Below, piece by piece: positions 10,808 through 56,250 of a DNA stretch of 64,000 bases. The DNA lies in assembly GCA_030706745.1 (NCBI GenBank), contig JAUZNX010000002.1, positions 372,001 through 436,000 of the forward strand. Reading direction: 5' to 3'. Within the stretch, counting starts at the first letter, position 1; every line of letters begins with the position of its first letter. Origin of the DNA: Bacteroidota bacterium (GTDB lineage: Bacteria; Bacteroidota; Ignavibacteria; Palsa-1295). The notes beneath the pieces were generated by a model. It saw nothing but the letters and a program-made list of their open reading frames with translations. It did not search any database and was not told the DNA's origin. Position numbers and translations under genes: made by a program.

Positions 10808-10837
10808 CCATTGGCGGAGTTTGATCTCCGCCAATGG
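10808..10837. terminator. Hairpin between convergent TPR and OmpA genes
   Basis: A perfect 12-base-pair stem, CCATTGGCGGAG against CTCCGCCAATGG with a six-base loop, lies between two converging genes. On the minus strand it is followed by the T-rich TTCATTTACATTT, which fits termination of the OmpA gene. Confidence 0.75.
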
Positions 10838-14449: not shown

Positions 14450-14476
14450 TGACACCGCTTCGTAGAAGCGGTGTCA
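14450..14476 (+). terminator. Strong hairpin after the T9SS gene
   Basis: TGACACCGCTTC pairs perfectly with GAAGCGGTGTCA around a three-base loop. The tail is only modestly T-rich (TTCGTCGTCATT), so termination may be incomplete. Confidence 0.5.
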
Positions 14477-44644: not shown

Positions 44645-44687
44645 CGGGTAGCAATGCTTGACGTGCTAAGCGTGGTGTTAATTTTGA

Positions 44688-44719
44688 GGGACGTGCCTGG
44701 CACGTCCCTTTCTATTTTT
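44688..44719 (+). terminator. Intrinsic terminator after the repeat lipoprotein gene
   Basis: GGGACGTG pairs with CACGTCCC around CCTGG, followed by TTTCTATTTTT. It lies 44 bases after the stop and before a convergent gene. Confidence 0.85.
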
Positions 44720-47937: not shown

Positions 47938-49626
47938 ATGGCTACTATTTTCAAAGGAGTTAACTGGGGCAAAGGACTCATTTTCAACTCCATCACTCTG
48001 GTCGCTCTTGCCAGTGTGCTCACCTTCGGTTTCGAAACGGCGTCTATGGCACAACCGGCCCAGACAGTATCCTATCAGGGACTCCTGATGAACACATCCG
48101 GTCCATTGACCGGCTTAGTCGACCTCGGGATTACATACTACGATGTCGGGACCGGCGCAGTACTTCTCACGGAGACATTTTCCGGAGTCTCTGTCACAAA
48201 GGGCGTCTTTGAACTCCAACTCGGTTCGACCGTCGGCGGACTCCCGGCGATGATCGATATTACCCGACCGATCGAATTGGGTATTCGCATCAATCAAGGC
48301 GAGGAACTCTCACCACGTGCCCGCCTGACTGCCGTGCCGTATGCGTTCACTGCGCATTCGCTCGATGGGATTCTTGCGAGCGCCACACCGACGAATGGAA
48401 AAATCTTTCCAATGCCACTTGACAACAATGGACACATCAGCTCGAACTTGCTTCCACCGATTAGCATCAATGGGATGGAGTCGACAGGAGGGAATTTCGA
48501 GATCGCTGCCGGACCGAACATCTCAGTGCAGCGTGATATTCCGAACGGTCGACTGCTCATCTCCGGAACTGCAAGCCAAATTACTGGCGTGGTTCTCGGG
48601 CAAGGTCTCATTGGTGGCGGAAGCACTGGCCTGATCACAGTTGCGCTCGATGCCGGACGGCTACCGGGTACCTGGATTACTCCGGCTTCGATCACGGGCC
48701 GGCAGTTAAGCGCAGACATCGCCGGAACCGCGCTCTATCAGGACCTCAATGGCAACCTGAATGTGGCGTACGATCCAGCACATTTCACAATGCTGGGCGA
48801 TGAGTTCACGCTCCGGATGGATGTTCCGGTTCGCGGGACAACCGCGACGTTCACGGGTGATGTCACCCTTGGCTCCGGCGACGCGAATATGACGACCGTT
48901 CTGAGTCCGCTCTCATTGCTGCATGGCGCAGATGCCGGGCTCCAGCGAATCACCTCACTGGGTGAGCCAATTGACGTAACCGACGCTGCAACCAAGGGAT
49001 ATGTCGATGGAGTGGCGTCTACACTTGCTGAAACGCTCGACGCAAAATTGGACGAACAATTACCAGCCTCCAATCTTTGGGTCGGTAACGAGAGTGGGAT
49101 TGCCCAGGCTGTCACTGTGACCGGGGACGCATCAATGGATGCAGCCGGACATCTAACCGTTACAGGAATCCAGAATATTCCGGTCGCTTCGGCTCAACCA
49201 TTGGGTGCGCAGTTACTCCGATATGATGCCGAGATGAACCGATGGGCGCCGGCTACGGTCGCCATGGGACAAATCGATGGCATTGTTGCTGGCACAGGTA
49301 TCACGGTAGACGGGTTGGATCCAAGGCAACCTCAGATCGCAGTGACTCCGCTGACTCAGACAGGAGCTGCAGGCTCTGTCGACTTTCTCAATGGTGGGCC
49401 GGCCAAGGCGAAAGAGCTCATTGCGACAATCAGCAATCCGCTCGTCACACCTGCGAGCATCATTATTGTGACGGTCAAGCTGAATGGTACCAGCATGGCT
49501 AACGATCATTATGTGGCGAACACAGCCAATGTGACAAATGGGTCGTTCGACATTCACTTCCTGCAGACCGGTGGTGACCTTAACAACGGCGAAGGTGCCA
49601 CGGTGCATTATGTCATCTTTAACTAA
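47938..49626 (+). CDS. Secreted phage tail fibre-like protein
   Basis: The 562-residue protein has a signal peptide with cleavage near ASMAQ. It opens with VSYQGLLMNTSGPLTGLVDL and RLTAVPYAFTAHSLDG, typical of secreted fibre-like proteins. The central region has repeated turns of beta-strand type and the phage-fibre phrase SLGEPIDVTDAATKGYVD (about residues 345-362). A coiled stretch follows, and the C-terminus (VKLNGTSMANDHYVANTAN) looks like a knob. It carries no T9SS tail. Trimeric display on the cell surface is the likely form. Confidence 0.8.
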   Translation: MATIFKGVNWGKGLIFNSITLVALASVLTFGFETASMAQPAQTVSYQGLLMNTSGPLTGLVDLGITYYDVGTGAVLLTETFSGVSVTKGVFELQLGSTVGGLPAMIDITRPIELGIRINQGEELSPRARLTAVPYAFTAHSLDGILASATPTNGKIFPMPLDNNGHISSNLLPPISINGMESTGGNFEIAAGPNISVQRDIPNGRLLISGTASQITGVVLGQGLIGGGSTGLITVALDAGRLPGTWITPASITGRQLSADIAGTALYQDLNGNLNVAYDPAHFTMLGDEFTLRMDVPVRGTTATFTGDVTLGSGDANMTTVLSPLSLLHGADAGLQRITSLGEPIDVTDAATKGYVDGVASTLAETLDAKLDEQLPASNLWVGNESGIAQAVTVTGDASMDAAGHLTVTGIQNIPVASAQPLGAQLLRYDAEMNRWAPATVAMGQIDGIVAGTGITVDGLDPRQPQIAVTPLTQTGAAGSVDFLNGGPAKAKELIATISNPLVTPASIIIVTVKLNGTSMANDHYVANTANVTNGSFDIHFLQTGGDLNNGEGATVHYVIFN

Positions 49627-49692
49627 AACAGAAGCGTTCATTTGAGAGCATTCTGAACACAATTTACTCACACACGCGAAAGAGAGTTCACT

Positions 49693-49723
49693 GCTGGCCA
49701 GGCGCACTGCCTGGCCAGCATGT
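49693..49723 (+). terminator. Intrinsic terminator after the fibre-like gene
   Basis: GCTGGCCAGGC pairs perfectly with GCCTGGCCAGC around GCACT. The tail ATGTTTCTC is only weakly T-rich. Confidence 0.65.
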
Positions 49724-49773: not shown

Positions 49774-50418
49774 ATGTCTACCACCAAAACCAACGACGAA
49801 CTAAAGGAGCTATTCTCTGCCAGCTCGAAGACACCAAAAGTAGTGACCGTCCCTAAAATGCAGTACCTCATGATCGATGGCAAGGGCGATCCGAATAAGT
49901 CGAAAGAATTCCAGGATGCCGTACAAGCACTCTATGGGCTTGCGTATACCATGAAGTTCGATCGAAAGAAGCAGGGCAAGGAAAGTGATTACAAAATTGC
50001 GCCGCTTGAAGGACTCTGGTGGAGCGAGAACATGTCGGACTTCTCCAATAATAACCGGACCAAGTGGCAATGGACGCTAATGCTCGAGCAGCCGGATTCT
50101 ATTACCAAGACGGAAGTTGCCAAAGCCGCAAAAGAAGTGGAAGAAAAAAAACATCTCGATACAGTATCGAACGTACGACTGGAGAAATGGAGTGAAGGAG
50201 AGTGTGCGCAGATTATGCACATCGGCCCATACTCCTCAGAAGCACCCACGATCGAGAAACTTCACGACTTTATCCGCGATCAAGGAGCGGATATCAGCGG
50301 CAAACACCATGAGATCTACTTGGGTGATCCGCGTCGCTCGGCACCGGAAAAACTGAAGACGATCCTCCGTCAGCCGCTCAAACGTCAGTCTCGAAATACG
50401 CTGCATCGACCCGCTTGA
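49774..50418 (+). CDS. GyrI-like domain protein
   Basis: This 214-residue cytoplasmic protein belongs to the GyrI-like small-molecule-binding group: PKMQYLMIDGKGDP near the start, YKIAPLEGLWW, then QIMHIGPYSSEAPTIEKLH and EIYLGDPRRSAPEKLKTILRQP at the end. After that last family motif, 11 extra residues (RQSRNTLHRPA, mostly) read into the antisense of the Mrr gene. The two convergent genes overlap by 41 bases. The ligand is unknown. Confidence 0.9.
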   Translation: MSTTKTNDELKELFSASSKTPKVVTVPKMQYLMIDGKGDPNKSKEFQDAVQALYGLAYTMKFDRKKQGKESDYKIAPLEGLWWSENMSDFSNNNRTKWQWTLMLEQPDSITKTEVAKAAKEVEEKKHLDTVSNVRLEKWSEGECAQIMHIGPYSSEAPTIEKLHDFIRDQGADISGKHHEIYLGDPRRSAPEKLKTILRQPLKRQSRNTLHRPA

Positions 50419-51241
50419 CGATGTATCGCTGTTGCTCGACCACTCCAATACCATGATGGACCATGAGTCGAGCGAGTTCGGCGCCATCGATGAGCAAGAT
50501 ACGCTTCTCCGAAGCTTCGGCGGCTTGCCGTGCGGCCGGAGAGAATTCTGATGTCGTAATCAACGCGCCCTTGCGAGTCGCAACGGTCGCGAGAGTGCGG
50601 ATAAAGTTTTTCACTTGCGACTTCTCCACGATAGCTCGCTCCCGAAGCGCATTGAGATAAATGGCATCATGACCGAGCTTGTGAGCTTTGACGAGTCCTT
50701 CAAGGACTCCGTGTTCCTGGCGGGTGAGAAGACCTTCCGCATGAGCGCGCGGGCTACTGTATCCCAGTGCAATGAGGACATCGAGTATGATTTGCTCGAA
50801 GTTGGCGGGCGAAGAGGCCCTAATATATTCCAAGACTTCAGCTCGAAGTGCAAGCGATTGCGCCTCGTATGCATGGCCGAGCGCTTTGTTTGGTGGCTGC
50901 CCGCAGCTCTTCGTGGCGTTCGTAGTGGGTGACGCGTACGAAGAGAGTGATCGAAGATCGCTGAAATCCAGCTTGGCTGGCGCAGTTTGAAGGATGCCAA
51001 GTCCACGCGCAGTAATACGGAAGACGCCTCGCGAGACTGGTTCTAGCAAGTTCGCGTTCTTGAAGCGCGTAGTCACGCCGGATACACACGTCCGAAGTTG
51101 TACAGGCTTCTCGGCATTAGTGCAGGGCAAACGAAAATAGTCGGCGAGATACGTTTCGGCATCGCCGGCGCTGTGAGGCTTTCCATCACCCATGAACTGT
51201 AGGAGCGGTAACATCACGCTCTCGGGATCGGGGATCTCCAT
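50378..51241 (-). CDS. Mrr-type restriction protein with degenerate catalytic site
   Basis: The 287-residue protein has an N-terminal winged-helix Mrr_N domain (about residues 1-90; MEIPDPESVMLPLLQFM, then RGVFRITARG). The C-terminal Mrr endonuclease fold (about 145-287) keeps NFEQIILDVLIALGY, TRKGALITTSEFSPAA and LLIDGAELARLM. But the active-site strand reads HGVLEG (179-182 VLEG) where Mrr has GIDG, and YLNALRE (195-201) where Mrr has YxQAKRW. Thus Asp, Gln and Lys are Glu, Asn and Leu. It is probably not an active nuclease. The start MEIPD matches the family; a longer frame to 51331 exists. Confidence 0.82.
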   Translation of the reverse strand: MEIPDPESVMLPLLQFMGDGKPHSAGDAETYLADYFRLPCTNAEKPVQLRTCVSGVTTRFKNANLLEPVSRGVFRITARGLGILQTAPAKLDFSDLRSLSSYASPTTNATKSCGQPPNKALGHAYEAQSLALRAEVLEYIRASSPANFEQIILDVLIALGYSSPRAHAEGLLTRQEHGVLEGLVKAHKLGHDAIYLNALRERAIVEKSQVKNFIRTLATVATRKGALITTSEFSPAARQAAEASEKRILLIDGAELARLMVHHGIGVVEQQRYIVKRVDAAYFETDV

Positions 51242-51302
51242 GTCTCGGAATCGGATAATGATCCGTGGGGGGATGGTATTCAATACGGAATCGAGCACAC
51301 CA

Positions 51303-51325
51303 GTTCCGTTCATCATGAACGGAAC
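51303..51325. promoter_or_regulatory. 23-bp perfect palindrome in the divergent promoter region
   Basis: GTTCCGTTCAT and ATGAACGGAAC are exact inverted arms around one base. It lies 61 bases before the Mrr start and 39 before the OmpA/PD40 start, suiting an operator for a dimeric regulator. Confidence 0.55.
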
Positions 51326-51364
51326 AGGCAAAACCCAACTGAACTCATCTGCGTTATTCTGGAC

Positions 51365-52810
51365 ATGCGTTTGCCATATAGCCTTGCAGCACCTCTGAAT
51401 GTGCCTGCTCTAATTTGTCATGCCTTGTTGATGCTCGTGCCGTTGCTAATCCCTTACACCAGCTGGGGACAGAATCCTCAGCTCCCGGGGATTAACATTG
51501 AAATTCCGCCGCCAAAGAAGTCTGCGCCCGCCGCGCCCCCAGCAGTCTTCGATCGCATCAATATGGGGCCGAATATCAATTCTGAGTATAGTGACCTGTT
51601 CCCTGTCTTGACCCCTGACGAAACGTTAATGTTTTTCGTGCGCAAGGGCGATCCTTCGAACACTGGTTACGCAAATAATCCGAACGACGAAGACATTTGG
51701 TACTCTCTTCGGCAATCGGATGGCTCCTGGTCCAAAGCAGAAAAGTTGCCAGGCCCATTGAACACCACGAATTACGATGGCGTCCGCGCGATCAATACTA
51801 CTGCCACACATCTCTATCTTCAGAACACCTATCGGGCGGATGGGACCGGTGGTAAAGGGTTTTCAATGAGTTCGAAGCAGCCCGATGGTTCGTGGTCCTT
51901 TCCCGAGCCCCTGCTTATCGACGACTATTATAACGACACGTCCATCGCGATGATGACGATCTCGGGTGACGAGAAGTATATGATCCTCTCGCTGAAACGG
52001 AAAGATGGGCTCGGTCAGCACGATCTCTATTTATCGCGAAATATTGATGGACATTTGCATTGGTCACGGCCGGAATTGATCGCAGAACTATCGACACCGG
52101 GTGATGATATCTCGCCATTTATCGCATACGACGACCGGACCATTTATTTCTCGACGAATGGTCGAGGAGGTATCGGTGACTATGACATTTTCGTCGCGCG
52201 CCGACAGGACGAAAGTTGGATGCACTGGTCGAATCCCCGGGATCTTGGCGAACCAGTCAACACTATTTCGTTCGATGCATACTTTACAATTGGCGCCCGC
52301 GGTGATACCGCCTACTTTTCGAGCGCGCATGAAACGTCAACGCGTGGATTCGGCAAGAGCGATATTTGGAAGCTCTATCTGAGAGAAGATCTCCGGCCTG
52401 GCTTCCATCTGCCGAAGGGAAGCGAGTGGGATCCGAATCTCTCCGCGAAGGACCTGCAAGGGTCCCAGATTCGGCTCGATGAGGTTCGGTTCGATGTCGG
52501 AAGCAGTTCGCTGAAAGGCGAATCCATGGCTGCGCTCGGCAAAGTTGTCGAATTGATGAAACGCTTGCCGGGACTTGCTATTGAGATTCAGGGCCACACG
52601 GACTCCCAAGGAGACCGCGAACGCAACATGGTGCTGTCTCAGAAACGGGCGGAGGCGGTCGTTACCTTTCTTGCCTCGCGAGGTGTTCGCCGCGACCGAT
52701 TAGGTGCCAAAGGCTTTGGCCCCGACCGCCCCATTGCTCCGAACGAAACGGCCTCAGGTCGGGCACTCAATCGTAGGGTGGTGATCGAGGTGACGCGCGC
52801 TGCCGATTGA
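51365..52810 (+). CDS. OmpA-family protein with PD40 propeller (PorE-like)
   Basis: This 481-residue protein has a signal peptide (cleavage near TSWGQ), a Pro-rich spacer, then PD40 propeller repeats from about residue 60 to 340 (FPVLTPDETLMFFVRKG, MTISGDEKYMILSLKRKDG, FIAYDDRTIYFSTNGRGG). The C-terminal OmpA domain (about 360-480) has EIQGHTDSQGDRERN, the peptidoglycan-binding TDxxG type, and ALNRRVVIEV. The order resembles PorE of T9SS but without the TPR domain. It is coupled to the methyltransferase by a TGATG overlap. Confidence 0.88.
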   Translation: MRLPYSLAAPLNVPALICHALLMLVPLLIPYTSWGQNPQLPGINIEIPPPKKSAPAAPPAVFDRINMGPNINSEYSDLFPVLTPDETLMFFVRKGDPSNTGYANNPNDEDIWYSLRQSDGSWSKAEKLPGPLNTTNYDGVRAINTTATHLYLQNTYRADGTGGKGFSMSSKQPDGSWSFPEPLLIDDYYNDTSIAMMTISGDEKYMILSLKRKDGLGQHDLYLSRNIDGHLHWSRPELIAELSTPGDDISPFIAYDDRTIYFSTNGRGGIGDYDIFVARRQDESWMHWSNPRDLGEPVNTISFDAYFTIGARGDTAYFSSAHETSTRGFGKSDIWKLYLREDLRPGFHLPKGSEWDPNLSAKDLQGSQIRLDEVRFDVGSSSLKGESMAALGKVVELMKRLPGLAIEIQGHTDSQGDRERNMVLSQKRAEAVVTFLASRGVRRDRLGAKGFGPDRPIAPNETASGRALNRRVVIEVTRAAD

Positions 52811-56222: not shown

Positions 56223-56250
56223 ACCGGCCATGAACAGCATCATGGCCGGT
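56223..56250 (-). terminator. Hairpin between the BNR gene and DUF421 gene
   Basis: ACCGGCCATG pairs with CATGGCCGGT around an eight-base loop. It lies directly before the DUF421 start codon, and after the BNR protein gene on the minus strand. There is no T-run. It may terminate, or hold the DUF421 start. Confidence 0.55.

Follow-up and report, generated by a model that had tools for sequence, protein, structure and literature searches.

The gene under study is an ORF at 50378..51241 on the reverse strand of the window (the whole 64,000-nucleotide stretch of DNA analysed), which encodes a 287-aa protein with an ATG start and with matches in both Pfam and PADLOC. This protein, called dead Mrr here for its replaced catalytic residues, begins with a winged-helix domain (Mrr_N, residues 1-88, 50978..51241), as seen in the predicted model and in a PF14338 match over residues 8-85 (E 1.4e-9, 38.3 bits against a cut-off of 29.5). 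A poorly conserved linker of low pLDDT and low identity (residues 89-116, 50894..50977) leads to a PD-(D/E)XK fold domain (Mrr_cat, residues 117-263, 50453..50893), which appears to be catalytically dead and was recognized from structure matches and from a PF04471 match over residues 141-260 (E 1.2e-17, 64.5 bits against a cut-off of 21). All these features lie on the reverse strand. The ORF product also matched mREase_IV in PADLOC (2.5e-37). From the two Pfam domains, the full-length alignment, and the tree, the ORF is assigned to the Mrr family by descent. An NCBIfam search of dead Mrr gave no match, nor did a PDB sequence search with the single protein, and a PDB profile search gave weak matches only (LlaBIII).

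Both adjacent genes lie on the forward strand. The gene of a GyrI-like domain protein (49774..50418, Pfam) is convergent with dead mrr, and the two overlap tail to tail by 41 bp (50378-50418), as they also do at the orthologous locus. On the other side, beyond an intergenic region at 51242..51364, lies the divergent gene of a 481-aa protein (51365..52810) with Pfam PD40 and OmpA domains. The original prediction had described this neighbour as a divergently oriented, PorE-like envelope protein; the orientation was correct, whereas "PorE-like" was a loose description of the PD40 and OmpA domains. This protein belongs to a large family here; a search with it matched 27 places in this genome and 24-31 per genome in the rest of the genus. 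The GC content (0.553) and GC3 (0.58) of dead mrr were similar to those of its neighbours, and a recent foreign origin was therefore rejected on composition.

The active site of dead Mrr reads EHGVLEGLVKAHKLGHDAIYLNALRE, whereas its relatives read GDEGIDGIIKEDRLGLDxIYIQAKRW. The catalytic Asp, Gln, and Lys of intact relatives correspond to E181 (codon 50699..50701), N197 (50651..50653), and L199 (50645..50647, all on the reverse strand), and the helix glutamate E149 is retained. In the orthologue, the active site reads GKEGSLEAVIKAHKLGHEAVYVLAHRW, and all three catalytic residues are likewise gone (E/L/H). The set compared, drawn from class, phylum, plasmid, and viral loci, comprised 67 distinct long sequences; a 68th row duplicated the query and was extended upstream. 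Only the query and its orthologue were without all three residues, and Asp, Gln, and Lys were intact in 64 of the 65 other relatives, which bears out the prediction that the three nuclease positions had changed together. The one exception (L102:1495-2451, genome G619) carries a single change of Lys to Asn (QAN) in an otherwise intact background. Neither dead protein thus has the D-QxK residues that define the Mrr type IV restriction endonuclease, and dead Mrr is predicted from these residues to have lost cleavage. The pair differs in what replaced Gln and Lys (N/L here and L/H in the orthologue), which would be expected if the two positions had drifted freely after the loss.

Changes were also found beyond the triad. 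Of 62 columns with at least 95% invariance across 31 intact relatives, 23 were altered in this copy, including GG162-163, which reads SS, and N51, R52, and W55. The active-site hairpin (residues 168-207, 50621..50740, reverse strand) is the region with the most invariant residues lost, D177 and G179 being lost in both dead proteins. It had been claimed that all Mrr fold markers were present; the predicted fold is indeed kept, but with 23 of 62 invariant columns changed the claim was overstated. Within the hairpin, residues 185-191 form a derived stretch common to the dead pair, KAHKLGH (50669..50689, reverse strand), where intact relatives have KEDRLGL. In the winged helix, a loop is shorter, R52 is altered in this copy, and N51 and W55, the most conserved winged-helix residues of the intact family, are altered in both dead proteins. 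Because of the latter two changes, the recognition specificity is expected to be unlike that of a methyl-directed Mrr, and methyl-DNA recognition may be altered or lost.

Among 61 related genomes searched, 14 in addition to this one contained relatives, and in 13 cases the alignment covered most of the length. The closest relative, 51% identical, is the orthologue referred to above; it belongs to a different species within the genus, publicly recorded as a Candidatus Kapaibacterium MAG (contig JADGPZ010000067.1). The next closest were 38-39% identical, one of them in the same genus, and all were intact; over the full length, dead Mrr aligned to intact relatives at 28-39% identity. The same-genus intact Mrr (38% identical) sits elsewhere in its genome, and no clear orthologues of the window's neighbour genes were found beside the 38-39% intact relatives. 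Thus, on the question of whether close relatives keep Asp/Gln/Lys, the triad is missing from the closest homologue as well; those that keep it are more distant and at other loci. The gene is carried by two species only, and four of the seven genomes of the genus are without any relative. No further members of the dead clade were found in genome contigs beyond the same second species or in viral contigs, none appeared in the class and phylum genomes covered (overlapping sets, with weak-match loci partly kept), and scans with the KAHKLGH stretch brought up no additional relatives. This genome encodes one other Mrr_cat protein (L079:9324-10494, contig C10), which has an IDG and VKG pattern and apparently active-type residues and whose start overlaps the end of a small transposase-like ORF; it was rejected as a partner of dead Mrr, being distant and no obvious partner.

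In a tree with E. coli, other plasmid-record, and viral Mrr sequences, the two dead proteins formed one clade (support 100/100), which grouped with intact Mrr of the same bacterial family (support 99/93); the dead branches are long (stem 2.28, tip 1.74), and the placement is less certain than the support suggests. Because of this grouping with intact Mrr of the same family, the loss of the triad is most likely derived and would have preceded the separation of the two species.

Synteny with the orthologue extended over ~10 kb, with seven neighbouring genes in common. The second species has the same order: pirin-like, NADPH-dependent reductase-like, 562-aa repeat-rich, GyrI-like, dead Mrr, OmpA/PD40, RNA methyltransferase-like, and ABC-F (two neighbours were identified by a domain check and the others named by reading their sequences). 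The same position in two species indicates an orthologous gene retained in part of the genus, and not an isolated accident. The orthologue of the OmpA/PD40 gene was present in the other five genomes of the genus at 67-69% identity, and dead mrr was absent from the stretches examined around it. The 562-aa protein (47938-49626) has a tail-fibre-like repetitive sequence and is 53% identical in the second species, evolving almost as fast as dead mrr.

The two species differ at 62% of four-fold sites, so that synonymous sites are saturated, and the dN/dS of the dead pair, ~0.165 at 51% amino-acid identity, is a rough value for this reason. The dN/dS of the neighbours was 0.04-0.19 where computable. 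In a neutral simulation at 55-60% divergence, at least 4 stops appeared and identity was at most 24%. In contrast, the reading frames of both dead genes are intact, without a frameshift, and this together with the 51% identity argues clearly against a pseudogene. Frameshift decay, which would have undermined the original prediction, was therefore rejected.

The distribution of conserved residues within the pair was the reverse of that in intact Mrr. The two dead proteins were 60% identical in the winged helix and 40% in the active-site hairpin, whereas intact pairs of similar overall identity averaged 45% and 72%, respectively; none of the 414 intact pairs, which share sequences and are not independent, differed to the same degree in the direction of the dead pair, and the contrast is a large one. 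In the hairpin, 6 of 20 invariants survive in both dead proteins, compared with 27 of 42 elsewhere (Fisher p 0.015). Constraint has thus shifted away from the active site and towards the winged helix. Identity in the pair was 31% over linker residues 89-115 and 71% over the C-tail (residues 264-287), where part of it possibly comes from the overlap with the GyrI-like gene. The net charge of the nuclease domain was +1 and -1 in the dead pair, compared with -4.9 +/- 1.8 (range -8 to -2) in intact relatives.

AlphaFold2 models of both dead proteins, each computed from an 11-row alignment, had a mean pLDDT of 81 and contained a winged helix and a PD-(D/E)XK core, with pLDDT below 50 at residues 101-113; the pTM was 0.53, so that the relative placement of the two domains is not trustworthy. 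The best solved matches to residues about 125-272 were AF1548 (1y88, Z 12.6, 108 residues, 2.7 A), MspJI (4f0p, Z 10.3), and AspBHI (4oc8, Z 9.8), and the N-terminal domain of RPB5 matched with Z 10.6 over 114 residues at 12% identity. The winged helix matched the retron-Eco1 effector (Z 10.8) and PadR, MarR, and RosR regulators (Z about 9). In the model, E181 lies in strand 180-185 and N197 and L199 in strand 193-199, at the places expected for the fold, which suggests that the loss occurred on an otherwise normal scaffold. The winged-helix and PD-(D/E)XK folds thus appear to be retained in both proteins, and the models agree with the claim that nuclease residues were lost inside an intact fold.

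Since the catalytic residues are lost while the fold is kept, purifying selection is evident, and constraint has shifted to the winged helix, we favour, at a probability of about 0.6, a stand-alone Mrr-family protein that has lost cleavage and has been retained to bind or sense DNA without cutting it. E. coli Mrr is reportedly a tetramer that becomes an active dimer and combines a winged helix with a PD-QxK site (PMC12707154), and PD-(D/E)XK proteins without an active site, presumably still binding nucleic acid, have been described (PMC1189080). Like E. coli Mrr, dead Mrr might form a dimer or tetramer, in which the winged helix would bind DNA and the pseudo-nuclease domain, with fewer acidic residues and a more basic character, would grip the DNA backbone or a partner subunit without metal-dependent cutting. 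Such binding could alter nearby transcription or report the state of the DNA. Counted against this reading are the changed N51 and W55 (and R52 in this copy), a palindrome upstream that is not conserved (see below), and the restriction to two species. The conservation of the winged helix could alternatively come from oligomerisation or fold stability.

An unlikely alternative is that the dead nuclease domain acts in immunity as a decoy or sensor, binding phage anti-restriction proteins or foreign nucleic acid and signalling or titrating without cutting. For inactive restriction endonuclease (iREase) domains, a role as nucleotide sensors or decoys has been suggested in BREX-related systems (PMC12839542), such domains also occur in other counter-invader systems (PMC10853773), and dead Mrr matched PF22722 (NACHT-associated inactive restriction endonuclease 1) over residues 176-256 at 31.9 bits against a cut-off of 27. 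However, this match was weaker than that of Mrr_cat, the best-scoring model. The NACHT NTPase association of the PF22722 class is missing, dead Mrr being a single free-standing gene whose 287-aa product has no effector domain, and a Pfam search detected no NTPase domain, either here or in its two neighbours. The flanks are ordinary (pirin-like, OmpA/PD40, RNA methyltransferase-like, and ABC-F) and form no defence island, and no near Mrr is left in the genome to be protected, the other Mrr_cat protein being distant. Slow decay, with the nuclease lost first, perhaps as harmful in a self-methylating host, and the remainder reflecting residual constraint, would fit the long branches, the number of altered invariants, and the DNA methyltransferases present in all members of the genus. 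We consider it quite improbable, given frames intact in two species at saturated synonymous divergence with a dN/dS of about 0.17, a conserved position, and winged-helix conservation above the intact-pair average. Methyltransferase incompatibility as the cause of the loss was rejected, since methyltransferases occur genus-wide, including the member with intact Mrr, and no pattern was seen.

It is very unlikely that dead Mrr is a structural or protein-interaction module working off DNA, like the N-terminal domain of RPB5 in RNA polymerase. The RPB5 match was among the best fold matches, and the C-tail is highly conserved in the pair; however, the latter is perhaps partly attributable to the GyrI-like overlap, the winged helix is retained and resembles PadR/MarR DNA-binding domains, and the nuclease domain has turned more basic, not less. 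Equally hard to credit, and at least as improbable, is continued nuclease activity at a moved or modified active site composed of E149, E181, H187, and H191, the two histidines being new. All four residues are present in both dead proteins, KAHKLGH is common to them within an otherwise divergent hairpin, and PD-(D/E)XK enzymes with a migrated Lys or Glu exist (PMC1189080). Against this, the differing Gln and Lys positions and the loss of D177 and G179 in both proteins imply that no site is maintained there, and there is no evident substitute for the Lys, K185 being conserved in intact relatives as well.

A non-cutting, DNA-binding dead Mrr would differ from each of the known systems that it resembles. 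It shares the two-domain layout, length, and predicted fold of the Mrr type IV restriction endonuclease of E. coli, but the Asp, Gln, and Lys of the PD-QxK site are replaced, N51 and W55 are changed, residues 168-207 are degenerate, and the locus is not one of restriction. With iREase domains (NA-iREase1, PF22722, and those of BREX-related helicases) it has in common a PD-(D/E)XK fold with a degenerate site under selection; those described belong to bigger conflict-system proteins, either NTPases or helicases, whereas dead Mrr is a free-standing winged-helix-pseudonuclease at an ordinary locus. RPB5, similar by structure and without apparent sequence relation, is a polymerase subunit, whereas dead Mrr is a free winged-helix protein. 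Both MspJI and AspBHI are active enzymes that depend on DNA modification, and their recognition domains are SRA-like, where dead Mrr has Mrr_N. Inactive REase domains as such are already known; a free-standing, full-length, vertically kept dead Mrr at a fixed chromosomal position seems to be new, and no such case was found in searchable papers.

If the DNA-binding reading is true, dead Mrr represents a natural separation of DNA binding from cleavage within the Mrr family and a case of a defence enzyme co-opted for a different function. Active E. coli Mrr damages its host and, to our knowledge, no in vitro activity of it has been described, so that Mrr recognition is poorly defined. A non-cutting member could be expressed safely to learn which DNA is bound by an Mrr-type winged helix.

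The original prediction of a DNA-binding or sensing role agrees with the shift of constraint to the winged helix. A more specific version, in which dead Mrr is a chromosomal regulator in a stable envelope-gene neighbourhood, reads DNA (perhaps a modification or a new sequence), and controls the divergent OmpA/PD40 gene or itself, is doubtful. The winged-helix fold of the transcription regulator class is present in the model, and the intergenic region contains a perfect 11-bp palindrome, GTTCCGTTCATcATGAACGGAAC (51303..51325), which is the only copy in the genome and exceeds chance in that region (0 of 2000 shuffles). The corresponding region of the second species lacks it, and similar repeats also occur elsewhere in the window, so that it is weak evidence for a conserved operator. 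Inverted repeats that are perfect over arms of 11 bp or more were located at five other places in the window, at 10808-10837, 14450-14476, 44687-44709, 49692-49720, and 56223-56250. Some of these adjoin gene ends or starts and are possible terminators.
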